The notes under the pieces were generated by a model. The model searched no databases. It was not told where the DNA came from and saw nothing but the letters and a program-made list of their open reading frames with translations. Below are positions 6,703 through 53,281 of a stretch of DNA of 64,000 bases, piece by piece. Positions within the stretch are counted from its first letter, which is position 1. Every line of letters starts with the position of its first letter. The stretch is from Macrocystis pyrifera (taxonomy: Eukaryota; Sar; Phaeophyceae; Laminariales; Laminariaceae): contig JASSKH010000023.1 in the NCBI GenBank assembly GCA_031763025.1, positions 7,839,501-7,903,500 on the forward strand, read 5' to 3'. The position numbers and the translations under genes are program-made.

Positions 6703-7013
6703 TAGTAAAAAAGCAGAACCCACGATCGACTCCGAAAAACATATCATCCCCGTATGTTTACGCCTCCACATTTTGGCTGTGGTTACTGCTGTGTGTTCCC
6801 CCCCTTCCCCCCGTTATACTGTACCACTCTGTCCCAAAATGTAATGACCAGTTACGCTGAGCATTTATATGCCAACGAGGCTTACATCTCGCGACAGAGT
6901 GACCCCAAACCCCGACCCTAACCGGGGACAAGGTGCTTGATATTTTGAGTGGCATGTCCCCAAAGCGAGACTACTGGTCAAATAGTGTGAAACAACCATT
7001 GTAATAAACACTA

Positions 7014-17200: not shown

Positions 17201-20200
17201 GCGGGAAAGCATGGGAATTCCTGATGGACTCCATGCAAGGACAGCCTGTCGAGGAACGCATGCATGCCGCTGGGTCAGTGGAGGGAGCGTGGAAGGCTGT
17301 CATGGACTGGTACCATTCAAGAGATGATCCCTCTCTCGGCATCACCTCTCGGCTGGTACCAATCCGTGACGGGCTTCCACGCTCCCTTCACAGACCCAGC
17401 GGCATGCATGCATTCCTCCGCAGGCTGTCCGAGCATAGCTTTCCTCCGTCATTCCCATGCTCTTCTCGCACTTCTCTTCTTTCCCCTGCAAATGACAATA
17501 GACCGACCGGTCGCGCTCTGCCGTCCCCCCCAGAACCTTCTGCTATCCGAATCGGGTCGCTCGTGGGCTCAAGCGCGTGTGTCTAGCCCCGGACCGTGAA
17601 GAAAGCTTGGAACCTACTATACCACTAGTGAACTTGGCTGCGCCTATCAAACTTGGGCACTCGCATGCTGATTTGCGACATGGTGAGCGGGGGGGGGGGG
17701 GGTATGGCTGCGGAATCCTTGCTCCTGCACTGGTTGTCTAGCACTTGCCTGCTGCATGGGCTTGCCCGCTCCTCCCACAGGTAAAACTTTCTGAGTCGCT
17801 GCGTCGGTTGATACCCTCAGCGTTCTCTCGGTTGCCGAAGGCGCTGCTGTAAGCGCGTCTCGCTCAGCGGCCATCTTATCAACCTGCCGCCTTCAGCAAG
17901 CTCCGGACCCGGACACTCGACATCATGTCTGTGTACGCTGCTGTCCTTTGTAGCCAGGCGATGTGACGCTATGCTGTAGGTGAGGAGAGCACAATCTATT
18001 GTACCCGGAGCCGCACCTGGTTGTCGCAGGCTCTCGTACGTACACAAAGCATAGAACCTTGTCGTCACGCTCCACCCACACACTTATACGTACGGACAGG
18101 ATCTTTGTATTCAAGCCCGGGCCGTACATTATTTTCATCAGCGATTGGCACCCCGAAGGGTCCGTCGTACACATACGAACGAAGCATCCAAGCATCATCT
18201 CATAGATCGGAATGCCTCGCGACACAATACAAACGCCCAGATACCCGCGTACACCAACATCGAGCACTCGCGCACCACAAACAACCGATAAACACAAATA
18301 AAAAGAAAACGAATCGATACTTACAAATACGATATTTTTTATACGCACACCGAAGCTTTCGTTCAGTATCTGCCTAAAAAATACGGTGATGCCGGAAGAT
18401 GGAGTGCGAAACACGTTCGATACGACTTATCGATGGTTACGTTTCTATTTTTTCGTCATCACTATTGCTTTCCAGCTTAACTCGTACCTGGTAGGAGGTT
18501 TTACCCTCAGCGACCTTCTGGACAAGTCCTGGTCGCAGGTGTCGTCCCTTACCCCCCCCCCCGTTACGTGCCCTTCATTTTTTTATCGCGCATAGGCTTC
18601 AGCATCCCACTTCCTCGTCGATGTTCATCGAGTATTGCTATTACGGGGGTCCATAGTAAATAGGACCAAATATTGTTAGTAAAAGTAGGTGAATATATAG
18701 GTTTTTGTGTGTACCGTAGGTCCTATTAACTATGGTCCCCCCGTAATAACTCACGCTCTCGCGTTTTCCGCTGATCATTTTCTATGGACGATACGCAGCA
18801 ACTGTTCCTGATGTTCGTTGCGATATCGCCAGGGATGCAAACACGGGGATGACAGGAGATGGGAGGCCAAACGCCTTCGACACGATATATCGTATCTTCA
18901 ATATAAAATGTATCGAAACTGTCGGCACGATATCCAACAACTACTCCTGATGTTTGCTTTGCGTCATCGCCAGGGCTGCATGGAGCGAGCGTGGTCATCA
19001 TGGGCAGGCGCGAGAAATTCCTGTCGAAGGCTGTCGACCAACTCCGCGCCGACGGGGTCTCCGCTTCCTTCTTTGCCGGCGACGTCAGGTGCGTGTCATG
19101 GTATTTATGGTACTCATGTTATAGGAGGCGTGTTTTCTGATGAAACGCGCCAAGCAAATAATGTATATGACCCTCCTGCTCTCAGAACCCTCTGAGATTA
19201 ACCCTTTAAGAACCCCAGTCCCGTTTTGGGGACAAACCACTCTAATTTCAAGAAGTGTGTCCGCAACACGGGACTATAGTACTAAAAAGGATAAATAACG
19301 TGCTAATCATTGAATATGAGACATGATACACTGTGAGTGACTGAACACGTTTAGCTATATCTGCATTACAGTAGTTGGGCCAGCCCCATACTGCCCCTTT
19401 GGTTATATCCAGTAACCAGCCTATACCCGGGCATGCTGTCATATGCGCCCGCCCTGCGCTCGGTATCGGGGTAAGTGTTCGATATTGAACGAGAGTCGAG
19501 GTCGATACGACGATACCCATCAGCAAAAACGAAAAACGATACAATATCGATATTTGATTAATCGAAGCTTTCGTTCAGTACCAGCACAAACAAACACGGG
19601 GATAGGAGGGGATGGAGGGCATCGTAGTGCGTGCGATACAATTTTTTTCAATATATCGAAACTTTTGATGCGATATTCATCACTAATCGGAATGCCCGGT
19701 ACGGTACCTGGTACAAGCAGTACGTAGCCGGCGCGAGCTTTGCCGCGAGCTCGCATCCCTTTTTTACTGCCGCGAAAGGTGTCTTATTAGTAAGTCTGGT
19801 TTCAAACACCAGTATATATAGGTTATCTTCGAAAGGTGGGTTGTAACGTTAGTATTACGGGGGACCATAGTAAATAGGACCAAATATTGTTAGTAAAAAA
19901 AGGTAAATATATAGGTTTTTATGTATACCATAGGTCCTGTTAACTATGGACTTCCCGTAACAGCAGGTTTTTTCGTTTGTAAATTGATTAAAAATCCAAG
20001 ATGAATGATTATCATACAACGAGGGAGTTCCAGAAGAAAATGGCGTTTTGAGGTGCCTACGATCAATGATGGGCTCGCATTCTTCTGTCGCTCGAGGACC
20101 GGTATGATGACGCGAACAATGTAATTATGCAAAATATAGATGGCGACCCCTTGATACCTCACCCTTCGCCCGAACCGGCATGTGTCTCGCCGCTTCCGGT

Positions 20201-30054: not shown

Positions 30055-30466
30055 TACTCGGGGTGGTGAAGTAGAAGGGTTGGAGTGGGTGAAAATAAGA
30101 CATGAAATATTTTATCTACAGCAGTAGTGTGAATACCAGTATATAGAGCTCACCTCATGTTCGAGATTTGGTCTGATTGGCTCGGGGGTCACGGTTAGGG
30201 TTGTTCTCATTGGCCTAGGGCTCTTGCATTACGACCGGTCTGGGCTATTCGCAATCTGGGGCGCGGCCATATTCGGAAGCATAGTTCGGCACTAATCCAA
30301 ACAAGTTCCGAATTGTCTCGAAAATCAGGTTGGCAAAGCACTGCCGCCCACTCAGCACCTGCTAGCGCGCCCTCGACAGCGTGCGACGGCGCGCCATGCA
30401 TTCCAAAGTGTAGTGCGGACCCACCCCGAGGTACTGGCCCAAAAATGAATTCAATCGGCCACGAGC

Positions 30467-31375
30467 AGCGCTCGCACGAAACATCTAATAAAATGTAATT
30501 TTTCTGGCCTCCAAAAAGTGTCGCAAACGGTAATAATTCTGCAAGATGAACGAACGTCGTTTCGACGGGTTCGAACGCAGCTACAATTCCTCGGGAGGCG
30601 CTGCGGAGAAGAACTGCCGAGCGAAGTAGGGAGAGCGCGCGCGAAAGCGCCGCACGCACACCAAAGTTTAGCCTGTGTACACGATGTGCCGCTGGCGCAA
30701 AGACGGGCTTGATCGGCCTTGAGCAGCGCTCACACGAAGCATCTAAAAAAGGGTAATTTTTTTCTGGGCACCAAAAATTGTCGCAAACGGTAATAAGATT
30801 ACGGGGGTCCATGGTTAATAGGACCTACTGTACAGACAAAAACCTTTATATTTACCTTTTTTTACCAACAAATATTTGGTCCTATTTACTATGCCCCCCC
30901 GTAACAGTAATTCTGCAAGATGAACGTCGTTTCGACGGGTTCCTCGAGCTCAACTCCACCTCCTCGGACACGCCGCGGATAATAACTGCTGCACGAAGTA
31001 GAGAGAGCACGTGACAGCGCCACGCGCAGACCAAAGTGTAGCCTGTGTACACGATGTGCCGCTGGCGCAAAGACGGGCGTGATCGGCCGAGAGCAGCGCT
31101 CACACGAAGCATCTAAAAAAGGGTATATTTTTTTTTGGTGTCCACGAAAAAGTGTCGCAAACGGTAATAAATCTGCAAGATGAACGTCGTTTCGACGGCT
31201 TTTTGAGCTCAACTCTGACTCCTCGGGGACGCCACGGAGAAGAGCTGCTGCACGAAGCAGGGAGAGCGCGCGACAGCGCCGCACGCAGACCGAAGTGTAG
31301 CCTGTGTACACACCGTGCCGCTGGAGCAAAGACGGGCTTCATCGCGGCCTTGAGCAGCACTCACACGAAGCATCT
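30467..31375. repeat. Subterminal ~255-bp tandem units, left arm
   Basis: Unit boundaries at GAGCAGCGCTCACACGAAGC fall at about 30467, 30721, 31090 and 31349; the second interval is lengthened by MITE copy 13. Each unit contains GTCGCAAACGGTAATAA, then GATGAACGTCGTTTCGACG (a near-palindromic CGTCGTTTCGACG), and ends with GGCGCAAAGACGGGC. Confidence 0.85.
30799..30904. mobile_element. TA-MITE copy 13, nested in a subterminal unit
   Basis: Sits inside one ~255-bp unit (GGTAATAA and TAATTCTGCAAG are contiguous in the others). It therefore inserted after the array formed. Confidence 0.88.
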
Positions 31376-31529
31376 AAAAAAATATACCACAGCAGTAAAC
31401 TAGAGGCTAACCGAGGAGCATGGTGATCACGTCTTCGAGCGGCTTCGCATTGTTTGATTATTAACAATAGTACTATTCATGCTGCTGTAGTGGTTTCAGA
31501 CTTGGCATAGATGCATAGTCGAAGACCTT

Positions 31530-31890
31530 AGGGAGTTCCGAGCCACCGAAGGGTCAACGGAACTTGCTCCCTTGGTGTTTGGAATTGAGACCGCGCTGTG
31601 GCCCACTGCTGCAAAAAAGGCGGGGAAGTGGTACCGGGGGATCCTAGAAGCAGCCGAACGGTTCACGGTGAGGTGGTACGAGGCTGAGGCTGAGCTGAGT
31701 AGGCAGCGCCGCGCATCCGCCGTGGGTGGTGTCCAAGGGAATGGGGGGAGGAGGGGCAACAATAGGAGTAGCAGAAAACTCCACCAAGGGAATGCGGAGA
31801 GGGGGGGGAACAGGAGTAGAAGGGAAACTGCAGTGGACGAAAGTAGGAAGGAGATGGCGGACAGGGTAGCAAGGTACCGGGCAGACTAGG
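31530..31890 (+). CDS. Conserved TIR-encoded protein, left copy
   Basis: The frame reads ATEGSTELAPLVFGIE, then AAKKAGKWYRGILEAAERF and VRWYEAEAEL, followed by a G/N/R-rich tail and EMADRVARYRAD before the stop at 31889. The right arm encodes the same protein on the opposite strand (50593-50990) with mostly conservative changes, e.g. KKSGKWYRGVVEAADCF. Conserved peptide despite diverged DNA suggests past selection for coding. No known domain. The upstream start is not defined and is probably an exon. Confidence 0.45.
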
Positions 31891-31899
31891 AAGTAGAAC

Positions 31900-32640
31900 A
31901 TGCCTACGAGTATACTACTCGTGCCACCAACTGGTGCAGCTGGTTCGAACGATTTTCCTTTTGTCTTCCTTTTGTTTTTGTTTATTTTAGTGTCATTTTA
32001 TTTTCTTCTTTTTGCGCTGACCCTATGTGATTTTCACTTTATGTTCTTTCTCTTCCTTTCTCCGATTGACATGCCTTATTGAAGGAGTCGTGTGGCGTGG
32101 GTGGATGACGAGCCTGCTTTGCTTGTTTCGTATTGTCTGACGCCGAGGGGCCCGGCATAGTTGACGAGCGCTGGACGATGGTGGCAGACAGGGTAGCAAG
32201 GTACCAGGCGGACCAGCAGGGAGACCCTGGCTGTGCTACTCGTACCATAAACTGCTTCCGCTACCTGGAGGATGCTTTGTGCTTTGTTTGGTTTGCCTAT
32301 TATTCTCCCTTGGTTCTTAGTCTTAGTCTGCTGACGACGACTATTAATAGTGGTGTTTTTCTTCTTTTTACTTTTTTTCTCCAGCTCGTTTTTTTCAAGT
32401 GGAAGTGTCTGCCAGATCCCTGCGGGGGGGGGCACGACGGTTTGTTTCTTGTACATTTATTTCTTGTTTATTCATCTTTCGAATGTCTTCCTTGTTTTTG
32501 TATTTGTATTTGTTTTGTTTTGTTTTTCTCTTTGTTTCGTTTCGATTCTCTAGGCCATGGAATGTGTGTGTAGTGCCTGTCGTATGCAGTATGATGACAT
32601 GGCATTGCATTGCATACCTGGCAACGTAGTATCTCTGTGG
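31900..32640. other. T-rich block shared with 48640-49260 in direct orientation
   Basis: Contains TTCTTTCTCTTCCTTT, GAAGGAGTCGTGTGGCGTGG, GACGCCGAGGGGCCCGGC and AGGTACCAGGCGGACC. All recur at 48700-48870 on the same strand, although this block lies in the inverted-repeat arm. ORFs here are F/L-rich and not convincing genes. Confidence 0.6.
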
Positions 32641-33299
32641 CGTAGCTTTGTGACCACGGAACTTGTATCTCTCTATTAATAGGATTGAAGAATCGGCACG
32701 GACACTGGTTGTGCTGGATGTCGACGGGTAGAAAGAACGGTTTAACGTGAAGAAAACAACAACAACAACAACAATTAGAAAATACGTGGTATATATCCGT
32801 GACCAAACGAGAGCGTATATTACAGCGTATTGGTTTCTTCATCAGGAGTATATTATATTATATATTATATTATAGCGTACTTGTTTCTTCATCAGGATTA
32901 AGAACTGTACAATTAGCCAGATAGATACAATACGTGTTCTGCTGTTTGTTTGAGTAGGAGAACTAGTAATACCTTGTTTTTAGTGGTGAGCTTGGGATGT
33001 GGCACATGACACCAAAGAAAGCGTGCCGCCTCGACTACGCTGGTGAAAGGGCGCAGTAGGCCCGCGACCCACCGCGACCGTGGCATGCATGCACATACAC
33101 ACAGCCCTTCTCGGGTGGGGTCCATCAGCGCGAGCAGCGCCTGCTCGGTGCATCGGTGCATCTTGTTGCGGTCTGTCCTTCGTTTTCTGGCCAACCAACG
33201 TAGGCCACGTACGTACAGCCAACATGGTGATAATTATTAACAACATATATCTGTACGAGGACCCAGGCGGCATCTTTCCCCCGCGAGCTAAAAGACCGA

Positions 33300-33780
33300 G
33301 ACGGGCCATATACAGTATATGGCGCTGCCCGCGTCCTGTTGCCGGCCAGTTTCTCCGGAAAGCTGCGCTGTTCTCCACACCTTGCCATACATTTACAACC
33401 AAGAGAGAGACCTGCCTTCCACAGTAGATACAACACCCTCGGGAGTGCAGACGCTTGCCTTTTCTGTGGTGGGGGGATATGTACTCTGGTACCTTGTGTT
33501 TTTCACTCGATTTGTACCTTGTATCAACACAATATACTCGTGTGTACCAGTTTCCCTATCTACCACTCTATTTTATATATATATATTCTCGAGCCCAATA
33601 TAATGATTGAAGATCGTCCACCCACCAGCGAGCAGCCCCCAACAAAATCAAAACATCCGCTTCGTCAATCCCGGCCGTGCACGCAGCCGCCTCCGCTGAT
33701 CATGGCCACGACCGTCGACCTTGCTGCGTGTGAACTGCAAGCAGGGGCGTTGCCACACCGCCTTGCCAAAAACACGTGAA
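33300..33780 (+). pseudogene. Coding-like block conserved in both TIR arms (inner end)
   Basis: The frame reads PASFSGKLRC, QPRERPAFHSRYNTLGSADA and CLFCGGGI. The right arm has the same peptide on the minus strand (about 47720-47570), including the CLFCGG pair. It resembles the Cys-rich tail that follows RT or RNase H in some retroelements, but that link is weak. Several stops and indels follow. Confidence 0.3.
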
Positions 33781-34325
33781 CACGCCCTCACGTACTGCTT
33801 GTCCAAAAATGAGCTTGGTTCATCTTTGGCTAATAATACAGCTTGATTTCGTTGCACGTATTATCTGCATCATTCCTCTCTTATATAGTTGAGACTATAC
33901 TATTGATGAGACCTTACACAGTCAGTACAACGACGCAGAAAGTATCGTGAATTCATTTTAATTTTTGAACGTTTAAAATATACGCCAGTTTGAATTTCAA
34001 AATTGCTTTAATTGTCCGCCGTACGCCGGGGAAATCCTCCACCAAAACCCGTGCAACGAGCGACGGCCCACACAGGCAACGTATCATCTCATGCATAGGC
34101 ATCCTCCATCTCCCGAAGCCGAGACTTCCCGCCAATTTTTTGGTGCAGCGCCCTGCAGCTTACACCACCAACACCAGCAGACACACTTTTGTTGTATCCA
34201 GTCTTCGGTTTTTCAGTCTTCTACACAGGGATCGGCACGATAGCCTCCGACCGCCAAAATCAAAGTAGGCGACGAAATATTGTAGTCCCTATCCAGGCCG
34301 TCTTGTCTTCACCCATCAATACCTG

Positions 34326-34682
34326 GTGGGGGGCCAGCACAGGTTATTTCGGTGCAAGAGACCAGCACACAACCTCTGCTACCAACAGCAGCACCAAGCA
34401 ACGGACAAGCCCTTGCAGTATAAGTGCGGCATCACGGTAGACAGCTGCGTTAGTTTTTGTACTCCGCACGAGGCCGCCGGTCATACAGACGATACCCGAG
34501 AACCGTTCGGCGCCGGCGAAGGAGTTGACCAAGACAACGAGTTGTGCCTCAGGGGAAGCCTGCAGTGGCGGTTGGTCAAAAGGCTCGAACACCACACGAC
34601 GTGCTGCGGGGGTCGAAGTGCCATCTGGTGTGCATGTCTCTGTGCGGCCTCGGATGCGGAGCGGAGGCTTCAGGGTTATCGG
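34326..34682 (+). CDS. Possible Cys/His-rich upstream exon of the cargo gene
   Basis: Open frame with PLQYKCGITVDSCVSFCTPH and later RLEHHTTCCGGRSAIWCAC. It ends at a GT donor (CGG|GTGAGC at 34682) in phase 0, which matches the phase-0 acceptor at 34729. The C-x(6)-C-x(3)-C...H spacing vaguely recalls the C-terminal zinc motif of piggyBac transposases. Other frames are also open here, so the assignment is tentative. Confidence 0.35.
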
Positions 34683-34728
34683 GTGAGCTACTAAGTATTC
34701 GCTAACCCTTCTTCGCACATGGAAACAG

Positions 34729-41016
<6,288 letters not shown>

Positions 41017-41190
41017 GGCTTTGGTTCTAGCATCTCTGTCGTAGAGCACAGGCACCTTGCGAATAACCGTGTCATTGGTAGTGCCCTAGGACCAGCTGTC
41101 ATCGAGGATGGTCTGTAGTGCCCTAGAACCAGCTGTCATCGAGGATGGGTCAATAGTATGCAGAGCTCTACCGACCGGTTCGTCCAGATA

Positions 41191-41252
41191 TTACGGGGGA
41201 CCATAGTAAATAGGACCAAATTTTAAAGTTAGTAAAAATAGGACCCCCGTAA
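41191..41252. mobile_element. TA-MITE copy 16, internally deleted
   Basis: A 62-bp version in which both ends are intact (TTACGGGGGACC and GGACCCCCGTAA) but the middle of the family is missing. Confidence 0.87.
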
Positions 41253-41377
41253 TAGTTCCTCGATTAAACAGTAGTTAACAACACCCGCTGTATACACATT
41301 ACCAAGAGTTCACAACACCAACATGTCGCGGAGAGAGCCGTCTTGTGACAAGCCATTCGTGTGCCTTTTGCATGGTG

Positions 41378-41487
41378 TTACGGGGGACCATAGTAAAAAC
41401 AGGACCAAATATTGTTAGTAAAAATAGGTAAATATATAGTTTTTTTATGTAAACCATAGGGGTCCTATTAACTACGGACCCCCATAA
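41378..41487. mobile_element. TA-MITE copy 17
   Basis: Complete copy, ends TTACGGGGGACC and GGACCCCCATAA, only ~125 bp from copy 16. Confidence 0.87.
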
Positions 41488-41923
41488 TAGTTGCCTTTGG
41501 CATAGATGTTGGGTGTACAGATGGGACGGCGGCGAAAGGGTGTGATAATTTTTGCGGACGATGGCATTGTGTAACACCTGTATGTTGTGTGTTCTTGGCC
41601 TCCCCCAGATCTCGTCATCACGTCCATCGCAGGGGGTGAAGCGTGGCGAGATTTAAAAGCTGTCGTAAGTAGTTCACATACGAACTCCGTGTTCCACAGG
41701 TCATGTGTGGATTATGTGAACTTGTTGGTCGAAATAAATATATATCTACCAGGTATAAACTTGTACGCGCAATGCCAATACCTGTGGTGTGTTTTCTGTC
41801 CGCAGAGCCGGCGCCAAATGGCTGCGCGTGTGTTTGCGATGACCTATGTGCTGTTTGCGCGTTCCCTCACTTGTTGTGCCGGTGAAGCTGCCCGTATATA
41901 GTTATCCGTACGCCGCAAGTGTG

Positions 41924-43940
41924 ATGTCACCTCATCGGCAATCGCAGGGGGTCACCACCCCGGACGTAGTATATATAACTCCTCGGCGCCCATGGAAAAT
42001 CATCCGTGGCTCTTCGTTCGCCCCTCGTTCCACCCAACACTCACAACCAGTACTCCATGGTGAGCTGGGCCGTCCATCTCGCACACAACAATCACACTTT
42101 TCTTCGTGACGAGAATAGTACTAGGAATTGGCAGTGGGGAAGAGGAAGAAGAAGGCGCGAACGGGGACGGTCATGGTAAGTAGCAACGCTGTCGCATATT
42201 TTGTCCGGATGATGACGCGTGTGCGTCGAAGCGCACGCGGCGATGGCCTGTGCGGCTGGTACATACGAACACGTCCGCAATAATCTTGCATCGTGCAAAA
42301 CAAAAGAATAGACCAAGTAACCCTGGTACGTCTATTAATAGTATTTCTCAGGGGGGCGAGGGCGTGGGCAACCAATGGCACACGCGATCGAAGCATCTGC
42401 GACGAAAACATTATCCACAGCTGAGAAGGAGAAACGCACAAGTCATTACGACTGGCTTCGCGGAAGAGACGCAGGCAAGGTCGGTTTTCGTATCACCAAG
42501 CTTTTTTTTACCAACAGCAGTTTCGACTATTTCTTAAGCAGTCGTATTCTCACCAGATTATTCACTTACAATTTCAGAATCAATAGATAGTTGAAACTGT
42601 TTCTCAATGAAGAATTACTACAGTCGAGCCGGACGCCCCGGGGGGTCTAGTGGTAACCCTCGAATCCTACTATTACAATGGGACCATAGTAAATAGGACC
42701 TACGGTACACACAAAAGCCTATATATTTACGTATTTTTACTAACAATATATGGTCGTATTTACTACAGCCCCCCGTAATACATGGTAGCTCCCGAGTTCG
42801 AATCCCACCATGACTTCGAACGAATTTTCAAAAAAAATGGGGAAAAAAAACAGGAAGCAACCGCTGAGAGCGCGTAGCGTGGAAGGAAAGGCAAAAGTCT
42901 CTCGCGATAAAAATCATATCACGAGCCGTAGAGTCTGGTATATGACCCTGTATCCGAGTTACTACTGCGGTAGGAAGGAGGGAGAAGAAAAAGGGCGAAG
43001 ATAATAAATACCACCAAAAAACAAAATTGCGCCGCAGCATTTTTTGTTTTTTGCCAATGCCAAAGACCAAGACCGTCACGCACGGGCCACCAGGTACTTG
43101 CTCACTCGAGAGAAGAGCGACGACTTCTACGGGGGTGAAAGGACTGCTGAAGTTTCTTTCTCCAGCAAGACGCATCGCAGTACGTGGACCTCCGAAAACG
43201 GCGACGGAGGTCGCACGGTCGTCGACGGTGGCTTCCTTCTGCACAAGTCGGTTCGAAACGGAGACGCAGCTCTAAAGCCGGTGATGCACGACGACGTCGT
43301 ACCGATTGCCCTGGCGATGAAAAGGTATGTCGGTTTATTGACAGACGAAAGGTGGGATGTGCACCATCTTCTTTGACGGCAAGTCGCCGCCAGCGAAGGG
43401 GGCGCACGTCGGACCGGCGGCATGAAAGACGCGAGCCAGCTCTCAAGCATTGTCACGGAGATAATGGGAAGGGTGACGTAGATGCCACCAGTAGATGTGC
43501 TTATAAGCAAGCGGCGTCATTTTTCACCTCGTGTGATTGCCAGGGGTCTCCGCCATCCTCCGAGGTACTGGAAGATGCGTGTATCGGATTTTACCGACGC
43601 ACTTCGGGATGCGCGCGACCCCAGAGCCCAGAAAATGGACGTCCCGAACGAGGGGGGCAAAGAAGAGGTCGCGTCCGCTAGAGGAGTTGCTTCCTGTGAC
43701 CGCGAGAAAGACTTCAACCCCCTCACCCCCTCGGTGGAAAGCGGGCTGTCGCGCGCAAACATTTCGACGAGGGTGCTAATAGTCTTAGCGAAAAGGAAAA
43801 CCCATCGGCCAGTGTGTTCTACGACTCCCTGTCGAAGGCCACATTCGAGACTAGGGGTTACCCGAACAGCGAGAAGTTGGCCACGAGACTGCTACCGGCA
43901 CGCGTGAGACGCCAAGAAAACGAAGACGAGGAGGCCAACT
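41924..43940 (+). CDS. Second spliced gene or fragment in the giant element
   Basis: The candidate start MSPHRQSQGVTTPDVVYITP (41924) leads to a donor at ~42059 (CAT G|GTGAGC). A coding-like exon 42352-42480 (ASATKTLSTAEKEKRTSHYD) ends at GGC AAG|GTCGGT in phase 0. Exon 43038-43324 (phase 0 acceptor GCCGCAG) reads AKDQDRHARATRYLLTREKS and DDFYGGERTAEVSFSSK, ending at a GTATGT donor in phase 2. The C-terminal part reads YWKMRVSDFTDALRDARDPR and, after a frameshift near 43755, SLSEKENPSASVFYDSLSKA to EDEEAN-stop at ~43940. Exon joins between 43325 and 43480 and the first intron are uncertain. No domain recognised. Confidence 0.38.
42636..42815 (+). mobile_element. tRNA-like sequence (A box and B box) split by a TA-MITE
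   Basis: GGGGTCTAGTGGTAACC (A-box-like, ~42643) and CCGAGTTCGAATCCCACC (B-box-like, ~42792) would be ~45 bp apart without the insert. The T-arm does not fold well, so it looks like a tRNA-derived relic or SINE head, not a working tRNA gene. Its sequence differs from the SINE family at 37513/49265. Confidence 0.45.
42673..42778. mobile_element. TA-MITE copy 18, nested in the tRNA-like sequence
   Basis: Left end TTACAATGGGACC is diverged, right end GCCCCCCGTAA, with TA on both sides (42671-42672 and 42779-42780). Confidence 0.87.
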
Positions 43941-44317
43941 GATCCCTGGAGGGGGTGGGGCGTAGACGTGTAACGTCTTGAAAGACACGAGGAGCAGGCA
44001 TGCTGATCCGCTAAAACCAACGTGTAGCGGGCGTAGAACTTGGGAACATCGTCGACTTTGACGCATGTAGTATCTATTTTTTTCTCCCTCTCATTAAAAT
44101 TGATCCCGATCCGAAAACCAAGCCGGGTGTGCCGCGACGCTTGGGGGAACGCTCTGATTGACTTCGTGGTGGGTGTAGGTTGTCCAGTGTATCCCTTACA
44201 AAGCATCGAGACTTCGTTTTCCCGAAAGGGTGCGACTGGTTGCGATGAAAGTTCACCGCGTCTATGGAAAAAAGTGTCCTTGACTATGTCCCGCCAGTTT
44301 GCCGGGGAATGATTCGA

Positions 44318-46899
44318 TTAGTTTTTTTTTTTCCCCAGACGATATAACCCAGCGTTAGGGTTCTTTTCTGTATTCGGTACAGACATGACTAACACCACCC
44401 TCCCAAGTTGCCCGGGCCCCATCAACACATGAACCCCGTTCGTTTCACTGCTGTGGATTCGAAACACGCCCACCCACTTACACCCAACACTCGCAAATGC
44501 CTGGCGCGCCATGTGAACGAGGAAGGCGCAAACCTGGAAACAGGGGTCAATCAAATCCATCTGCTTCGAGGTGAACTTGGTGTGGAGAAACGTCCCACTC
44601 CTTCAAGGCGCCGATAGCCCGTTCGATGTGAACGCGGATATTAGCCGTCCGCTTAGTTTGCTCTGCATCTATGGCGGTAGACTGAGCTTCACCCCTCTGC
44701 GTGCGCTTGCCGGGCGGTACCACAAGATTTAGGCCGACACAAGCCGAATCGACGCCGAGAGGGTTGAATCCCCTGTCTGCCATCACGGAGAAAACATTGC
44801 CACCCCCAAACCTCCGCCACAACAAGCTGGCCTGGACTCTCTCACAAGCTCGGAGTCCGTCATTCTCCCCCCCCCTCCCCCCGTAGGCATCGGAAACATG
44901 GAAAATTGCACCTGCAGGAGTCACACCAACCATAATCTTTTAGCCGTGGGCCTCTGTTTGTACTCGGACCACAGCACGTGCGCCAATATCAGTCTGCCAC
45001 ATGCGCCTAGTCTCCGCTTCCGTCGCATCGAGAACGAAAACAACGCCGCTCATGTCCCTCCTGCGAAAGTCAGGTGGGGCCGTCCGTCCCACCTCGTCCA
45101 CGCGAGGTAAACGCACGAAAGGCCGCAAGGCTCCAGCTAAGAGCTTCAAGCCAGGTCACGAACCCGCGTCCACCAGTGGTCTCGTCAAACGCCGAGTAAA
45201 GACGAAGGAAACAACTATGGGAACCCCGGTTCGCAAAATAAACGCGAAGAAAAGGCCGTTGACGCCCCGAAAGACCTTCTTCCGCCTCTGCGTCCGTTTG
45301 TCTCCATCCACGTCCCCTCCCCCGCTATAAAAAAACATGTTCTCCGCGGCGCCAGAATAATTGACCGTGTCGTACAAAGCCTGCATGTTCGAGCATGCGC
45401 GCCGGTATTTGTCACTTTAAAAAAGTTGAACCGGACAAAAAGAGGGGGGGCACACTTACAAGTTCATTCAATAACGGGTGGGGGGGGGTGGGGGGGGGTG
45501 TACTCATTATCGTGCATGGCCGTAGTCGTATGACCATAGACCCTCGCATCCCGATAATGCCGGAACGGAGCACGTCGGGTTTTCACCGACCAGGCCGACA
45601 TTACTTGCACCAAGCGCGAAGCGCCGTGAGGTGTTGGGCTAGTCGCATGAAGGGTGGGCTGTATCCTACTAAGAACCGATTTCGAGGCGGATTTTCTTGC
45701 ATATGGGTGACAGCATCAATGAATTGAATTAACTTCTGGTGTGGCCACTTCCAGATACAGCAATGGGTGTACTATGTAACTGCCTCGTGGGTGCCTCACC
45801 ATGTACACACTACGTGATACGATCACCGCCCTTGTGCGGAGTTAAGGTTCTCCCCGCACAAAAATGCTCTAACTCGACCGCCAGCCGTGGTAACCGCCAA
45901 ACAAAACAAAAAAAAACGGTACCCCGGCTGTCTAGCTCACGCAGTGAGAGGCGTGTTTACAGCGTCGTCGCCAATCGACGCCAACCCAACCTATATATAC
46001 CACGTATATAATATAGCGGGGGGGGGGGGGGGGGGGGGGGGGGGTGTATTAAATTGGAACTTGAGCCAGTACAAACACGGCCGTCTAAATCGATGGCTGA
46101 ACGACCTCTGGCACACTACCGCCCCTCTCATACCAGCGAGTCACACCCTTTTCAAGGGACAGACTTCGCGGAACTACTGCAGTGTAGGGTAGAACAAGTG
46201 CGCAACGTAGCCTTATACTTGCGAGCGCCGTAACAAAATACTGCTGTGTGTTCTGCAGTGGCACCAAGGTGACGCTCCTACATCTCACCAGTAAGGGTTC
46301 CGGGCAAGGTAAACCACAGAGGCTTCGTGAACGTACCGGATCCAGGACCGGCCAGGATGGTGCAGTCAATGGCCGATCCTCGGCCTCGATCCCCAGATCC
46401 CCCCCTTTCCTGCTTGTCAGTGTGCGCTTCCCCGGTTTCCTTCAGGCGCTGGTGACCGGCCGCCAGCTCGTCCTTCATGCGGCGGTTTTCCGTCTCCAAG
46501 GCGGATATCCGGATGGTATTCGCCAATGTTTTCGGCCTTCAGACACCGAGCAGTTGCCTCCCACCTCTTCGAGAGGCCTATGGCCCCTTGCATTGCCTGT
46601 TGAATCTCCTCCGCAGTCTGTCTCGGCTCGGCACCCTCCTTCAGCGTTACGTTTGGTTGTAGATCAAGAACAGTACTGCTTGTGGGCCGTTTTTTTGCAC
46701 GACACAGGCTGCCGGGCGGGAAGCGCACGAGGGAAACCTTTCCATCCAACTTGTCGTACTCGTCGACGTCTACTACCCCCAGGTAGTCAAGCCAAGCATT
46801 TTTGGCCTCCGTGCCTTGCGGCAATCTGATCGTAGCTCCATCTCCTGCGCCGAAACACACTTGTTTGCGGCAAATACAACGCTGTTTCCTCGCGGCCAT
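44318..46899 (-). pseudogene. THAP-like/DDE_Tnp_4-type transposase (ISL2EU/PIF-Harbinger-like), frameshifted
   Basis: N-terminus (46899-46550): MAARKQRCICRKQVCFG, IRLPQG, AWLDYLGVVDVDEYDKL, PPGSLCR and LQPNVTL follow the order of a THAP zinc finger, but the final C-x2-H pair is not clear. A coiled-coil follows after a frameshift (LETENRRMKDELAAG). A donor near 46286 starts an intron that holds a poly-G family element (45471-46044). The catalytic half shows all three DDE motifs: VVFVLDATE, VMADRGFN and VHIERAIG. WSEYKQRPTAK, VGVTPAGAIFHVSDAYGG and DLIDPCFQVCAFLVH are further landmarks. At least four one-base shifts are needed (near 45200, 45080, 44940 and 44590). It would supply strand transfer for the giant element if it were intact. 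Frameshifts may be decay or sequencing error. Confidence 0.62.
45471..46044 (+). mobile_element. Poly-G family, A-type, full length, in the transposase intron
   Basis: G-rich left border, TGTACTCATTATCGTGCATG, TATGACCATAGACCCTCGC, GGAACGGAGCACGTCGGG and the long body to TATATAATATAGCG, followed by a 25-nt G tract. About 570 bp. Confidence 0.87.
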
Positions 46900-47789
46900 G
46901 TTTAAATGCACTATCGGTGCCAGGCAAGCCCTCTTGAGCAGTACACTCGCCTCGGCTTTGGGAGGTGGAGGATGTCTATTATGAGATTATACGAGCCTGT
47001 CGCTCGTTGCACCGGGTTTTGATGGAGGATTTCCCCGGCGTACGGCGGACAAATGAAGCATTTGAAATTCAAACTGGCGCGTATTTTGAATGTTTTCAAA
47101 AAAATTAAATGACTTCACGATACTTCCTGCGTCGTTGTAAGCTCTTAGTCTCAACTAAAGAGAGGAATGATGCAGATAATACATGCAACAAAATCAAAAT
47201 GTACTATTAGTCAAAGATGAACGAAGCTCTTTGGACATTTTCGTGTGGGCGTGTTCACATGTTTTTGGCAAGGCGGTGCGACCAGCACCCTGCTGCAGTT
47301 CACACGCAGCAAGGTCGATGGTCGTGGCCATGATCAGCGGAGGCGGCTGCGTGAACGGCCGGGATTGACGAAGCGGATATTTTGGGGGGGGCTGCTCGCT
47401 GGTGGGTGGGTGTGACGGTCTTTAAATCATTATATTGGGCTCGAAAATAAATATAAAAAATAGAGTGGTAGATAGGGGAACTGGCACGCACGAGTATATT
47501 GTATTGATACGAGGTACAAATCGAGTAAAAACACAAGGTACCAGTGTATATTCCCCCACCACAGAAAAGGCAGGCGTCTGCACTCCCGAGGGTGTTGTAT
47601 CTACTGTGGAAGGCAGGTCTCTCTCTTGGTTGTAAACATATGGCGTGGTGTGAAGAACAGCGCAGCTTTCCGGAGAAACTGGCCGGAAGCAGGACGCGGG
47701 CAGCATCATATATGGCCCGTCTCGGTCTTCTAGCTAGCGGGGGAAAGATGCCGCCTGGGTCCTCGTACAAATATACGGTGTTACACCTA

Positions 47790-49750
47790 TGCCAATGGGA
47801 ACGCGATGTTCAAAAGTTTTCTTTCAAAAATATTGCTTTAAAAAAAAACAGCCGAAAATATCCTCGTACCGCCGCTGTGGGAAAAAAGCGAAAAAAAAAA
47901 ATGCTCGATTTTTCCTTTTTTTTTTTCTACCGGCTGCAGGCGGCACAATTTGTGTTCTCTCGATGCAAATTGTCAACAAGCTGATAAAAATCAGCTCGTG
48001 CGACGATAGACGCTCGATCTCGATATAGACTCAGCCCACGGCCAACCCGCTTGGTGTCGGGCAAGGCCAACGAGAGTATAGATGACGGCATCGAAGACAG
48101 AAAGTGGAAAAATGCTCTATTAATAGGGGGCGAGAGGTTGCCGGCGGCGTCCTGCGGTGTCCTCCCAAACCTGAAAAAAAGCCTGTTTTTTGCCATTCGA
48201 GGCGGATCGAGAAGTTTTGTCTTCTGTTTGGTACACACCGGCGGCTAATTGTTTTTTTTTATCGTACGCCTGGCCAGCGCCCGCCACACGTCACTGGCCA
48301 ATGTGTGAAGACGGTGACCCAAGGGTGGGTCGGAGCCCCTAACGAGCGCACTCCGTTCAGAATTCATGACGCAATCGTTGGTTTTGTCGATCGATGTCCG
48401 TCGAGGACTCGGAATCTCGCCGCTTCGAACCAAAGATCGGCCTGAGTTTTTCTCAAGCCGATCTTGGCCCAACATCGGTCCCAGATTGCTTTTTTCGGGC
48501 TTTTCCAAAAGTTGGGAACTTTTTTTTTTTCTCAACGTGCCCATAGGAAGCCTGATCTAATTTTTTTGGCGGGGATCTTTGGAATTCAACTTTTTATTGA
48601 TACTTCGCGTTCCCATTGGCATAGGTCTGGATGATCACTTTTTTTTTCTCTTCTTTTTTTTCTTGCGCTGATCCTCTGGGATTTTCATTTTACTTCTTTC
48701 TCTTCCTTTCTTCGATTGATAAGCCTTATTGAAGGAGTCGTGTGGCATGGGTGGATGACGAGCCTGCTTTGCTTGTTTCGTATTGTCTGACGCCGAGGGG
48801 CCGGGCATAGTTGACGAACGCTGGACGGAGGCGGCAGACAGGATAGCAAGGTACCAGGCGGACTAGCAGGGAGAACCTGGCTGTGCTACTCGTACCATAA
48901 ACTGCTGCCGCTACCTGGAGGATGCTTGTGCTTTGGTTTGCTTGTTATTCTCCCTTGGTTCTTGGTCTTACTCTGTTTACGACGAGTAGGGGTGTTTTTC
49001 TTCTTTTTCCTTTTTTTTCCAGCTCTTTATTTTCAAGTGTCTGCCACATCCCCTGCTTGGGGGGCACGACGGTTTGTTTCTATTTTTTTTTTCTTGTTTC
49101 TTTTTCTCTTTCGATTCGTCTTTGTTTTTGTTTTCTTTTCTTTGTTTCATTTCGTTTCTCTATTTCATGGAATACGTATGTCGGTCATGCCTGTCGTATC
49201 CAGCATGATGACATGGCATTGCATTGCCCACTGCTGTGCTCACTGCATACGTGGCAACGTAGTCGCGTCCCCGGTGGCTTGGTAGGTGGTCCGCGAGCCT
49301 ATCAAGATCAATTTCGTGAGTTCGAGTCTCACCGAGTGCATGCTCATAGGGACTTTTTCTTGCATAAAATTGATTAGCGGAAAGCGCGAGAGCGTGAGTT
49401 AGCTGTACATTTGATGAAAATCGACGAGCAGTGGGAATGCTGAACCCTATGCGCGATAAAAACTAAAGGCACGTACCGGGGGCGAGAAGGGACGACACCT
49501 GTGACCACGGCTTGTCCAGAAGATCGTCGAGGGTAAAACCTCCTACGAGTGGGCTGGAAAGTAAAAGTGATGATGAAAAAAAAAAAAAAAAAAAAAAAGT
49601 ATCTCTGCCGTGGCGTACAGCTTTGTGACCACAGAACTTGTATCTCTCTAGATTGAAGATGAAGAATCGGCACGGACACTGGTTGTCCTGGATGTCGACG
49701 GGTAGAAAGAACGGTGTAATGTGAAGAAAACAACAACAACAACAACAACA
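47790..49750. repeat. Right-arm insertion carrying a direct copy of left-arm DNA
   Basis: 48640-49260 and 49600-49750 match left-arm 31960-32640 and 32640-32770 on the same strand, whereas the arms otherwise pair inverted. A SINE (49265-49598) interrupts the copy. 47850-48600 is not matched elsewhere in the window and has no convincing gene. Confidence 0.7.
49265..49598 (+). mobile_element. tRNA-derived SINE with paralogous empty site
   Basis: Full-length copy from CCCCGGTGGCTTGGTAGG to a ~24-nt poly-A tail. The left-arm copy of the same DNA (32625-32640) reads GGCAACGTAGTATCTCTG without the SINE. The insertion is therefore younger than the duplication, with a very short target repeat (GTA). 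Confidence 0.9.
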
Positions 49751-50592
49751 ACAACCATGTTGGCTGTACGTACGTGGCCTACGTTGGTTGGCCCGAAAAC
49801 GAAGGACAGACCACAACAAGATGCACCGATGCACCGAGCAGGCGCTGCTCGCGCTGATGCACCCCACCCGCTATTTGTGCTAGGGAAAAGGGCTTCGTAT
49901 GTGCAAGCATGCCACGTTCGCGATGGGTCGCGGGCCTACTGCGCCCTCTCAGCAGCGTAGTCGAGGCCGCGCGCTTTCTTTGGTGTTTGTGCCGCATCCC
50001 AAGCTTACTACTAATATTAAAAGCAAGGTAGTAATAGTTCTCCTACGGAAACAAACAGCAGAACACGTGTTATATCTAGCAAATTATATCGTTCTTACTC
50101 CTGATGAAGAAACAATACGCTATAATACGCTCTCGTTTTGTCACGGATATATACCACGTATTTTCTAATGCAGCGATTCTTAGTTGTTGTTGTTGTTGTT
50201 GTTGTTGCTGTTGTTGTCTTCACATTAAATCGTCCTTTCTACCCAGCTTCATCAGTACACCCAATGTCCGTCCTGATTCCTTATCCTAGAGAGATCTGAT
50301 TCCGTGGTCACAGACGGTGAGACAGAGGAAGACCAAAAATAAAAAAAAGAACCGCGAATTCAAGTGTCAAGCAAGTGAAATGTCAGCGTACCGAGAACAC
50401 AACACAAGCAATACCAAAAAAAACCCTAAAACCAAAAACAAAAAATTGAAATGAAACAGAATACAAACGACGCAAGGACTTCAGAAAGGCTGCCAGACGG
50501 ACAGCACACATACGTACTCAGGAAGGACAGATATCTGCGGCGCGGACGAATAACACGAAAGAGAGGGAGCTACAGGCAAACGTCTATAAGAG

Positions 50593-50990
50593 CTAGTCGA
50601 ACCGATACCTAGCCACCCGATCTATCATTTCGTTTCTGCATTCGTCGACAGCTGTATCAGTACGGCTGCCCCCCCCCCCCTCCCCCCCTCCCGTTGTCGC
50701 CGTTCTTGGCGTCCTCGGCTGCTTGGCGTCGCCGGCTCCTCCGTGCCTCGTCCCTGTGCCACCTCGCCATGAAACAGTCCGCCGCTTCGACAACCCCCCG
50801 GTACCACTTCCCGCTCTTCTTAGCCGCCCTCGGCAATAATACCATTTCTACTCTGAACAGAAGAGGGGAGCTTTCCGTGGACCCCTCGGTGGCTTGGCAA
50901 ACCCCGAGGTCGCCTGCTAGACTTTGGACCCAGTTCTTCTCGGGTCGGCCTGGTCCTGGGTTAGATACAGTATTAATAGTACTATTAATA
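50593..50990 (-). CDS. Conserved TIR-encoded protein, right copy
   Basis: Minus frame: CQATEGSTESSPLLFRVE, LLPRAAKKSGKWYRGVVEAA, DCFMARWHRDEARRSRRR, a G-rich tail and a close ENAR/EMIDRVARYRFD ending. Counterpart of 31530-31890. Some changes keep chemical type (A to S, I to V, E to D). Confidence 0.45.
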
Positions 50991-51069
50991 ATTAAACAAT
51001 GCAAAGCCGCTCGAAGACGCCATCACCATGCTCCTCGGCGAGCCTCTAGTTTACTGCTTGCTGTGGAAT

Positions 51070-52130
51070 ATTTTCGTAGATGCTAGTGTGAGCTCTGCTC
51101 GCGGCCGATCAAGCCCGTCTTTGCGCCAGCGGCACATCGTGTGCACAGGCTACATTTTCGTAGGCTGCGTGTGGCGCTGTCGCGCGCGCGCTCTTTATAC
51201 TTGGTACAGCAGTTCTTCTCGGTGGCGTCCCCGAGGAGTCAGAGTTGAGCTCAGAAACACGTCGAAACGTCGTTCATCTTGCAGATTTATTACCGTTTGC
51301 GACACACGTTTGGTGGACACAAAAAAAATATACCTTCTTTTAGATGCTTCGTGTGAGCGCTGCTCTCGGTCGACCACGCCCGTCTTTGCGCCAGCGGCAT
51401 ATCGTGTACATAGGCTACACTTTAGGCTGCGTGCGGCGCTTTCGCGCGCGCTCTCTACTTCGTACAGCAGCTCTTGTCCGTGGCGTCCCCGAGGAGTCAG
51501 AGTTGAGCTCAGAAACACGTCGAAACGGCGTTGATCATGCAGAATTATTGCCGTTCGCGACAATTTTTGGTGGACACCAAAAAAAACATGCCTTTTTTTA
51601 GATGCTTCGTGTGAGCGCTGCTCAAGGCCAATGAAGCCCGTCTTTGCTCCAGCGACATATCGTGTACATAGGCTACATTCTGGTCTGCGTGCGGCGTTGT
51701 CGCGCGCTCTCCCTATACTTCGTGCAGCAGTTCTTCTCCGCGGCGTGTCCGAGGACTTGGAGTTGAGCTCAAAAACCCGTCGAAACGACGTTCATCTTAC
51801 AGAATTATTACCGTTTGCGACAATTTTTGGTACCCAGAAAAAAATTACACTTTTGTAGATGCTTCGTGTGAGCGCTGATTGCGGCCGATCAAGCCCGTCT
51901 TTGCGCCAGAGGCACATCGTGTACACAGGCTACACTTTGGTGTGCGTGCGGCGTTTTCGTGCGCTCTCCCTACTTCGCTCGGCAGCTTCTCCGAGGCGTC
52001 TCCGAGGCATTATGGCTGCGCTCAAACCCGTCGAAACGACGTTCATCTTGCAGCATTATTACCGTTTGCGACACTTTTTGGAGGCCAGAAAAAATGACAT
52101 TTATTAGATGCTTCGTGCGAGCGCTGCTCG
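51070..52130. repeat. Subterminal ~255-bp tandem units, right arm
   Basis: GCTTCGTGTGAGCGCTGCTC recurs at about 51083 (diverged), 51346, 51603, 51860 and 52111, a spacing of 251-262 bp. Each unit has GTCGAAACGACGTTCATC and ATTACCGTTTGCGACA. The right arm has one more unit than the left. Confidence 0.88.
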
Positions 52131-52360
52131 TGGCCGATTGAGTTCATTTTTGGGCCAGTAACTCGGGGTGGGTCCACACTACACTTTGGAATGCATGGGG
52201 CGCCGTCGCACGCTGTCTAGGGCGCGCTAGCAGGTACTGAGTGGGCGGCAGTGCTTTGCCAACCTGATTTTCGAGACAATTCGGAACTTATTTGTATTAA
52301 TTCCGAATAAGGCCGCGCCCCAAATGGCGAATAGCCCAGACCGGTCGTAATGCAGGAGCC

Positions 52361-53281
52361 GTTAGTTAGTTCTATTCGTCTCGTACACAGTGTGTGTGTC
52401 AACCATCTTTTCGAATTAGTGGTACGCTATATATACGCTACCCTCGTGCATACATTAATTGGTGTGTTTTAGGAGACGGCACAGCAGCAGCACACAATAC
52501 ACAGCAGTAGTACACGGCACACGTTACCCTGTATACCCGGTGGCTTGGTAGGTGGTCCGCGAGCCTATCAAGATCAATTTCGTGAGTTCGAGTCTCACCG
52601 AGTGCATGCTCATAGGGACTTTTTCTTGCATAAAAAATTGATAAGCGGAAAGCGCGAGAGCGTGAGTTAGCTGTACATTCGATGAAAATCGACGAGCAGT
52701 GGGAATGCTGAACCCTATGCGCGATAAAAAATAAAGGCACGTACCGGGGGGGAGAAGGGACGACACCTGTGACCACGGCTTGTCCAGAAGATCGTCGAGG
52801 GTAAAACCTCCTACGAGTGGGCTGGAAAGTAAAAGTGATGATAAAAAAAAAAAAAAAAAAAAAAAAAAACACAGACAGTACAGCGGAGGAAAAGCAAAAA
52901 AAAAGAAGGTTTTTGCCAAAATCAGGTATACCTGGCCACTTTCGTGCCAAAAAAAGTTACATACTGAAATCAAGTACAAACACACACACCAGGAGCCCTG
53001 CTATTGGCCAAGCTGACATTGTAACTGATTTTGGCACGAAAAGGCCAAGGTACACCTGATTTTTTCTACTCTGTCTAGCTTTCAACTGATTTTGGCCAAC
53101 TTTGAACCAATCACAGAGGACATACGTACACTGCTGTGTTTTCTCTCCGTATGCGTCTGCCCTCCCTCGGTTGAAATTCTTCTGTATTGACGTATAAACT
53201 CTGTACTCGTACGTCGTATATACGTAAAAGTACGTATATACATGCATACATGCGTACGCTGGTTACTTTTTCTCCTTTGGG
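52361..53281. other. Stretch without a supported gene
   Basis: Contains the SINE at 52534. At 52920-53110 the word TGATTTTGGC / GCCAAAATCA is repeated several times (also at 53745-53790), followed by AT-rich DNA with (TACG)-like words. I see no gene. Confidence 0.5.
52534..52869 (+). mobile_element. tRNA-derived SINE, full length
   Basis: Head TACCCGGTGGCTTGGTAGG, T-arm hairpin GTGAG-TTCGAGT-CTCAC, body identical in order to 49265, and a ~26-nt poly-A end. It lies ~170 bp outside the right end of the giant element. Confidence 0.9.

Follow-up and report, generated by a model that had tools for sequence, protein, structure and literature searches.

The question raised by this locus is what kind of mobile DNA places kilobase-long inverted arms around several genes and the remains of a transposase. 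The stretch analysed (the window, 64,000 nucleotides, C204:7839501-7903500) comes from the giant kelp Macrocystis pyrifera, whose assembly has been described as 537 Mb in 35 scaffolds and 188 contigs, with 50.37% GC, obtained by PacBio sequencing of a haploid female gametophyte (PMC10498591); genome-wide searches covered the assembly of 537,376,219 bases and 223 contigs. A sequence-only reading had proposed that the segment 30219-52360 is a giant DNA transposon of a type that it could not name. The first part of this proposal was borne out, as the ends recur in distinct flanks and the arms differ by 10-26%, and the transposase domains now supply the name, the PHIS superfamily (PIF/Harbinger-ISL2EU-Spy). 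We consider it highly probable that the element is a decayed member of a family of giant cut-and-paste DNA transposons belonging to this superfamily, moving by the mechanism proposed below.

The element is bounded at both ends by the exact common terminus GGYTCYTGCATTACGACCGG, read as GGCTCTTGCATTACGACCGG at 30219-30238 (+) and as GGCTCCTGCATTACGACCGG at 52341-52360 (-), and both boundaries are common to other family copies. An exact match to 21 bases of the terminus was found at each end of this element and at one further site in the genome. Self-BLASTN of the window revealed inverted arms running inward from 30219 and 52360, with a left arm of ~3.9 kb (30219-34123, +) and a right arm of ~5.4 kb (46951-52360, -) enlarged by nested repeats. 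The two arms pair in four blocks with 74-90% identity: 30219-30796 against 52360-51805 reversed (90% over 579 columns), 30905-31484 against 51550-50968 (84% over 592 columns), 32649-33228 against 50312-49754 (74% over 628 columns) and 33238-34123 against 47783-46951 (84% over 896 columns), which sum to about 2.7 kb of aligned columns. The terminal inverted repeats (TIRs) of 4-5 kb read from the sequence alone, reverse-complementary from the outermost bases for about 3.9 kb, are therefore present and inverted from the termini inward, but they form separate blocks rather than a continuous repeat, the gaps being mainly nested repeats. The outer parts of the arms are tandem arrays of ~255-bp units, located at 30462-31397 (+; four copies of a marker motif) and at 51077-52150 (-; Tandem Repeats Finder period 258, 4.1 copies; five copies of the motif). 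The motif was present in all 12 arms examined, from six elements, with 2-16 copies per arm and a spacing of mostly 250-280 bases. A role of these arrays as transposase-binding sites is predicted; it is plausible and probably correct.

Searches of the assembly showed that the ends are not unique. The terminal 428 bases gave at least 140 DNA matches genome-wide, a lower bound because the best 40 of 80 candidates were scored, and a 33-base degenerate end pattern detected 28 ends at no more than three mismatches, while its reversed control detected none. From 32 end rows, 27 with an intact GG(C/T)T start, we counted 24 distinct flanks in which the element begins at the same boundary base; in other end rows the first bases were altered or lost. 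The flank counts exclude rows with an altered start (C199L, C215, C174L, C195aL, C194x) and rows with duplicate flanks (C222b, C198b, C199y); C27 and C205y, which have no clean boundary, were not counted, and several further 428-base matches lie outside the end list. Eight end pairs were in inverted (+ then -) order, with spans of 5.1 kb (C202), 5.7 kb (C174), 15.1 kb (C194), 22.1 kb (C204, the window copy), 23.2 kb (C220 and C195b), 28.5 kb (C195a) and 33.7 kb (C199), compared to 0.03 pairs expected within 40 kb under random placement of 40 ends. One pair (C215) showed the opposite order.

The closest comparison was provided by C195a, whose blocks collinear with the window copy total about 14 of 22 kb and include the transposase. 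From left to right, C195a matches the array of the left arm and the inner portion of that arm (32921-33536), then the gene A region (33528-35882) and 36512-36979, followed by gene B (39254-40443), 40657-41098 and 41480-43562, the transposase together with the inner right arm (43563-47782; 80.8%, 4319 columns), 49754-50177 and lastly the outer right arm. Among the other copies, C220 retains genes A and B, and C174 and C202 are short derivatives. The inverted arms measure about 0.9-1.1 kb in C174; those of C204, C220, C195a and C195b are longer, and in C195b they extend into the core. The extent of the TIRs therefore differs among copies. In C195b the core consists of an inverted duplication of sequence corresponding to the left half of the window copy (9467578-9470626 against 9473866-9470826, 98.1% over 3052 columns). 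Thus C195:9467578-9473866 holds a 3-kb inverted duplication around ~200 bp, and the outer C195b arms are 80-87% alike; the palindrome may have arisen by recent duplication of a half-element or by gene conversion, or may be an effect of assembly.

The transposase relic noticed in the core by the sequence-only reading was confirmed by domain search. A total of 198 filtered frames of at least 60 amino acids start between 30000 and 53000, and among the 20 element frames scanned against Pfam only 44550-44939 (-) exceeded the cut-off (DDE_Tnp_4, PF13359; 46.2 bits against 24.8; E = 5e-12), a domain which we take to mark the PHIS superfamily. The frame lies within a degenerate gene at 44321-46986 (-), in which a repeat (45476-46063) divides the N-terminal part (46281-46986) from the catalytic part (44321-45416). 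This gene is interrupted by stop codons and frameshifts, yet the whole block 43563-47782 still aligns to C195a. The alignment, read by eye, places the catalytic residues at the D of LDATE, the D of ADRGF and the E of HVER. With no open transposase frame, the window copy is, as judged from its sequence, a decayed and dead relic of the family. DDE_Tnp_4 was detected at E = 2e-28 or better in C199, C222 and C195a, with a full-length domain (1.9e-28) in locus L050. HTH_Tnp_4 (PF13613) was found in C199 (L048:1903-2364; 2.5e-7, 30.6 bits against a cut-off of 27), scored below the cut-off in L050 (18.1 bits) and was not detected by the Pfam scan in the broken window copy. The family thus combines the PHIS traits of a DDE_Tnp_4 catalytic domain with D, D and E and an upstream HTH_Tnp_4.

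A genome search with the DDE protein returned 21 matches (all 32 candidates scored), headed by the window copy (100%), C199 (74%), C222 (71%), C195a (69%) and C27 (61%), with the next match at 37%. The matches in C199 and C195a lie inside paired elements and those in C222 and C27 at 15-16 kb from a family terminus; since all five matches of at least 61% are thus placed inside an element or near a family end, the transposase belongs to the family. Divergence at synonymous sites (dS) was 0.03-0.09 among the C195a, C199 and C222 transposases and 0.19-0.28 in comparisons with the window-copy DDE piece, indicating that those three are mutually closer and younger than the window copy. Scans of viral and prokaryote contigs revealed no relative of the transposase, a phage neighbour search gave no match, a PDB sequence search reached best E values of only 0.28 and 0.43, and an AlphaFold2 model of the transposase joined from five aligned pieces had a mean predicted local distance difference test score of 31.7. 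A separate multi-copy DDE_Tnp_4-like family was also observed on C201, C192, C216, C200 and C126 (L052-L056), with a 298-amino-acid open frame at 36-37% identity to the element transposase; its copies are 92-99.7% alike over the compared stretches, and the family is apparently young.

Two accessory genes are encoded opposite to the transposase. The gene A region (34269-35915, +) contains a CxxC...HxxC-type segment (34269-34691) and exon candidates at 35063-35289 and 35397-35915. The latter exon had six genomic matches (all 15 candidates scored), every one inside or beside a family element, and is conserved in C195a; in five of five cases gene A stands tail-to-tail with the transposase, on the strand opposite to DDE. 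The description of the element as cargo-carrying does not suit gene A, because its exon matches only family elements. Gene B (39491-40250, +) is composed of two exons (39491-39924 and 40106-40250), both matched in C195a and C220, with a GT-AG intron read by eye; this one predicted exon pair is what stands of the spliced genes previously described in the core. Its 29 genome matches were grouped as 18 loci, nine in elements with a known end and nine without. The relatives with no detected nearby terminus are at C220:412559, 9939353, 15826465, 15855155 and 16086798, C202:91518, C196:10664703, C189:23407915 and C27:116681, and may be either decayed elements or members of a gene with a wider life. 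A further conserved open frame (40465-41013, +) had tblastn matches in C174, C220 and C195a.

The outer flanks of the 24 distinct intact ends were compared. Position -2 was A in 18 of the 24 (P = 2e-6 against an assumed frequency of 0.28), whereas A occurred at 0.30 further out; A was also present at -1 in 13 and at -3 in nine flanks, with AA in 12 and AAA in six. The test for target duplication, a feature that the sequence-only reading had suggested looking for, covered six of the eight pairs, C202 and C220 being excluded for one damaged end each. No direct repeat of 4 bp or more was found within two bases of the boundary in any of the six. In these flanks and end pairs there was likewise no AT duplication of the ISL2EU type and no consistent 3-bp duplication of the PIF/Harbinger TWA type, and an 8-11-bp duplication of the Mutator-like type was seen in none of the six pairs. 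The family seems to insert without target-site duplication, and insertion into AA|TT fits these data because A-rich outward flanks at both ends with no duplication of 4 bp or more are what such insertion would leave.

In the mechanism that we propose, the kilobase-scale TIRs would have the ~255-bp arrays as outer parts and inner parts that reach the start of two convergent gene sets, genes A and B issuing from one arm and the HTH_Tnp_4 and DDE_Tnp_4 transposase from the other. We infer that the transposase would bind the arrays and cut at the GG terminus, and would then insert the element between AA and TT with no duplication of the target. C220, C195b, C174 and C202, where no transposase was found, would be mobilised in trans, and genes A and B would have putative accessory roles.

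The absence of a duplication could also mean that the family is of an ordinary kind (PIF/Harbinger, ISL2EU or Nuwa-type), with a short duplication that has decayed, and not a Spy-like element that makes none. In accordance with this alternative, the TIR starts with GG as described for ISL2EU and NuwaII (PMC4482050), the Ectocarpus Harbinger elements described in PMC12477816 likewise have a tail-to-tail gene pair and make ANT or TNA duplications, and the window copy allows a C|TTA|G reading with one mismatch (CTA preceding GGGCTC, TTA following GAGCCG). The outer flank over the 24 distinct ends is however mostly NAA rather than TNA, ANT or AAT, and several pairs are A-rich outward at both ends, unlike a direct duplication. 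We therefore regard a decayed duplication as unlikely. A NuwaII-type C|TTA|G target, read from the window copy alone, was dropped after comparing the 24 distinct ends.

It is considerably less probable that another enzyme, such as a Mutator-like transposase, moves the giant element, with the DDE_Tnp_4 gene riding along as a nested passenger. Long TIRs are indeed typical of Mutator-like elements as described in PMC3310237, a Mutator-like transposase with an OTU-like segment lies inside C195b, and tblastn did not find the DDE segment in C220, C195b (covered short of 341 bp), C174 or C202, a result that also weighs against the preferred reading. The Mutator-like unit is nevertheless itself nested in C195b: its short inverted ends read GGGACCTGGTATAAGTACCCC, it is accompanied by a duplication of 9 bp (GATTTAATT), and its uninterrupted site is visible, with one mismatch, in the other half of the C195b palindrome. 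In addition, the DDE clade is tied to the family termini in five of five matches, each tail-to-tail with gene A, and no 8-9-bp duplication was found in the six pairs. The insert, a 7.4-kb Mutator-like element at C195:9460168-9467578 (L040, C195:9458434-9467433), carries a Mutator-like element (MULE) domain and an OTU-like match below the threshold.

A simple inverted segmental duplication, or an assembly hairpin, formed around an unrelated small Harbinger relic would account for palindromic arms and for a window copy with no clear target duplication, but it has become very hard to credit. In 24 distinct flanks the terminus has one and the same first base, and it recurs in eight inverted pairs against 0.03 expected, one of them a 28.5-kb relative with collinear blocks elsewhere in the genome, so that an artefact or a lone inverted duplication does not explain the data. 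Moreover, hairpin artefacts are expected to have near-identical arms, whereas these are 10-26% apart; the sequence-only reading had allowed that such an artefact or duplication could undo its proposal, and neither fits the data. An endogenous virus or Polinton-like element with inverted terminal repeats is very improbable, since despite the 22-kb size, the long inverted termini, the several genes and the endogenous giant viruses reported from Ectocarpus (PMC13236599), only the transposase passed the Pfam cut-off among the 20 element frames scanned, a small part of the 198, and the TIR and DDE architecture is sufficient.

Several observations weigh against the preferred interpretation, a PHIS transposon family that inserts without duplication. 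At the insertion site, A at position -10 in 14 of the 24 flanks is not predicted by the AA|TT model, and some intact ends have non-AA flanks (for example CCG, CGT, CAT and GTT). A shifted 3-mer was common to both ends in three of the six tested pairs, and one end had altered first bases in three of the six (C199, C195a and C174), so that these pairs leave room for a short duplication. C222 and C27 each have one detected end, that of C27 being altered. Protein constraint on the transposase appears weak or mixed, because the ratio of nonsynonymous to synonymous divergence (dN/dS) was 0.56-0.74 among C195a, C199 and C222 and 0.23-1.05 for the window-copy pieces (DDE piece: 1.05 against C195a, 0.62 against C199 and 0.74 against C222; three other pieces: 0.23-0.61). 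Gene A has one in-frame stop in each of the five other copies and dN/dS of 0.40-0.91 between pairs, while gene B, with pairwise dN/dS of 0.48-1.14, is tied to the family more weakly than gene A. In C222 (L069) and C27 (L070) the arm similarity starts at one common inner point, corresponding to window 33610, and no outer array or terminus was found on that side within the 9 kb examined for each.

Compared with described systems, the best reading is a Spy-like integration habit, although the family is not filed as Spy. Spy is described as a PHIS group of invertebrates, sister to ISL2EU, that inserts at AAATTT without duplication (PMC11304231, PMC4482050). Both have a PHIS-type DDE transposase and comparatively long TIRs, the kelp family like Spy seems to leave no target-site duplication, and its A-rich flanks recall the AA|TT-type site of Spy, published as AAATTT and, for most cgSpy insertions in human cells, as AAWTT (PMC11304231, PMC4482050). 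The Spy TIRs given in these sources are 5-691 bp, with one or two open frames and invertebrate hosts only, whereas the kelp family has arms ranging from ~0.9 kb to several kb, a full element length of 15-34 kb, subterminal arrays, extra genes and a brown algal host. Given the weaker A/T consensus, the host, the size and the TIR length, we do not assign the family to Spy. ISL2EU shares a helix-turn-helix and DDE transposase and a TIR starting with GG, but in the survey of PMC4482050 it has an AT duplication, TIRs of 6-259 bp, a size of ~4.8 kb, a YqaJ nuclease gene, THAP and animal hosts only. PIF/Harbinger elements have a related DDE transposase, with two tail-to-tail genes in Ectocarpus (PMC12477816), and differ by 3-bp TWA, TNA or ANT duplications, an average of ~4.1 kb and TIRs mostly below 60 bp with a maximum of 1042 bp, as given in PMC4482050 and PMC12477816. 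The 20 element frames scanned of 198 contained no Pfam match to YqaJ or THAP, no Myb/SANT protein and no PolB, retroviral-type integrase or capsid gene.

The giant KDZ, EnSpm and Sola-1 elements of Ectocarpus resemble the family in their size (10 to more than 30 kb), nested transposable elements common to copies, extra genes, decayed transposases and brown algal host, but they belong to other transposase superfamilies, PHIS not being among those named in the part of PMC12477816 drawn on here. Long-TIR and Pack-type Mutator-like elements likewise include long TIRs in the mobile unit (PMC3310237), and differ in that the window copy has no MULE gene in the 20 frames scanned, that of C195b is nested and the 8-9-bp duplication is absent. 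We put at slightly less than an even chance the bolder proposal that the family is a separate brown-algal PHIS lineage of giants without target-site duplication, in which the ends would be recognised via the ~255-bp arrays, a private CxxC/HxxC accessory gene A would be needed, and the arms would be resized by array change and by half-element inverted duplication as in C195b.

The remaining features of the window are mainly repeats, for which the labels long interspersed nuclear element (LINE) and short interspersed nuclear element (SINE) are our own, from a (CAA)n tail and a tRNA-like B box, and were not assigned by a search. A LINE-like 3' fragment with a (CAA)n end (31495-32774, +; 89% over 1305 columns to a copy at C205:599345-600606) interrupts the left arm; it is missing at the equivalent place in C195a. 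The right arm contains a LINE-like 3' fragment ending in (AAC)n (50190-50962, -; extent by eye, partial matches to LINE-like copies), a second LINE-like fragment in opposite orientation (48639-49755, +) split by a SINE-like repeat (49265-49598), and a nested ~0.85-kb repeat with inverted ends CCTATGCCAATGGGAACGCGA (47785-48654, -; ends by eye), of which a 77% copy occurs at C205:643511-644365. Further copies of the SINE-like repeat lie at 37511-37851 and 52533-52871. The LINE-like 3' fragments (31484-32774 and 50190-50968) occupy near-equal positions in both arms, just interior to the subterminal array, and may thereby point to target preference or to inter-arm exchange. A ~110-bp repeat with palindromic ends (GGGGGACCATAGTAAATAGGACC...), resembling a miniature inverted-repeat transposable element, was observed at 7009, 10554, 26937, 36177, 39036, 41378, 42669 and other positions, some within the element. 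Outside it are a tandem array of 29-bp units (1609-2449) and a hairpin (17208-17461) with two 124-nt arms, 81% complementary and 6 nt apart. An Rfam scan gave no match, a terminus scan of viral contigs gave none, and a Pfam scan of flank frames outside the element, plus one frame inside, gave no useful match.

Among the entries listed by searches of open-access literature there was no report of PHIS giants in kelps. PHIS autonomous elements are described in PMC4482050 as averaging about 3.5-4.8 kb with TIRs rarely above a few hundred bases, and a kelp family of 15-34 kb would widen this size range; the Spy branch that makes no duplication is described as confined to invertebrates (PMC11304231), and a kelp PHIS family would widen the host range. 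It would also add one superfamily to the giant DNA transposons known from Ectocarpus. The family raises the question of how a single transposase could bring together ends that lie 30 kb apart, and its naturally varying array lengths (2-16 marker motifs in each arm), together with its deletion derivatives, offer material for testing end requirements.

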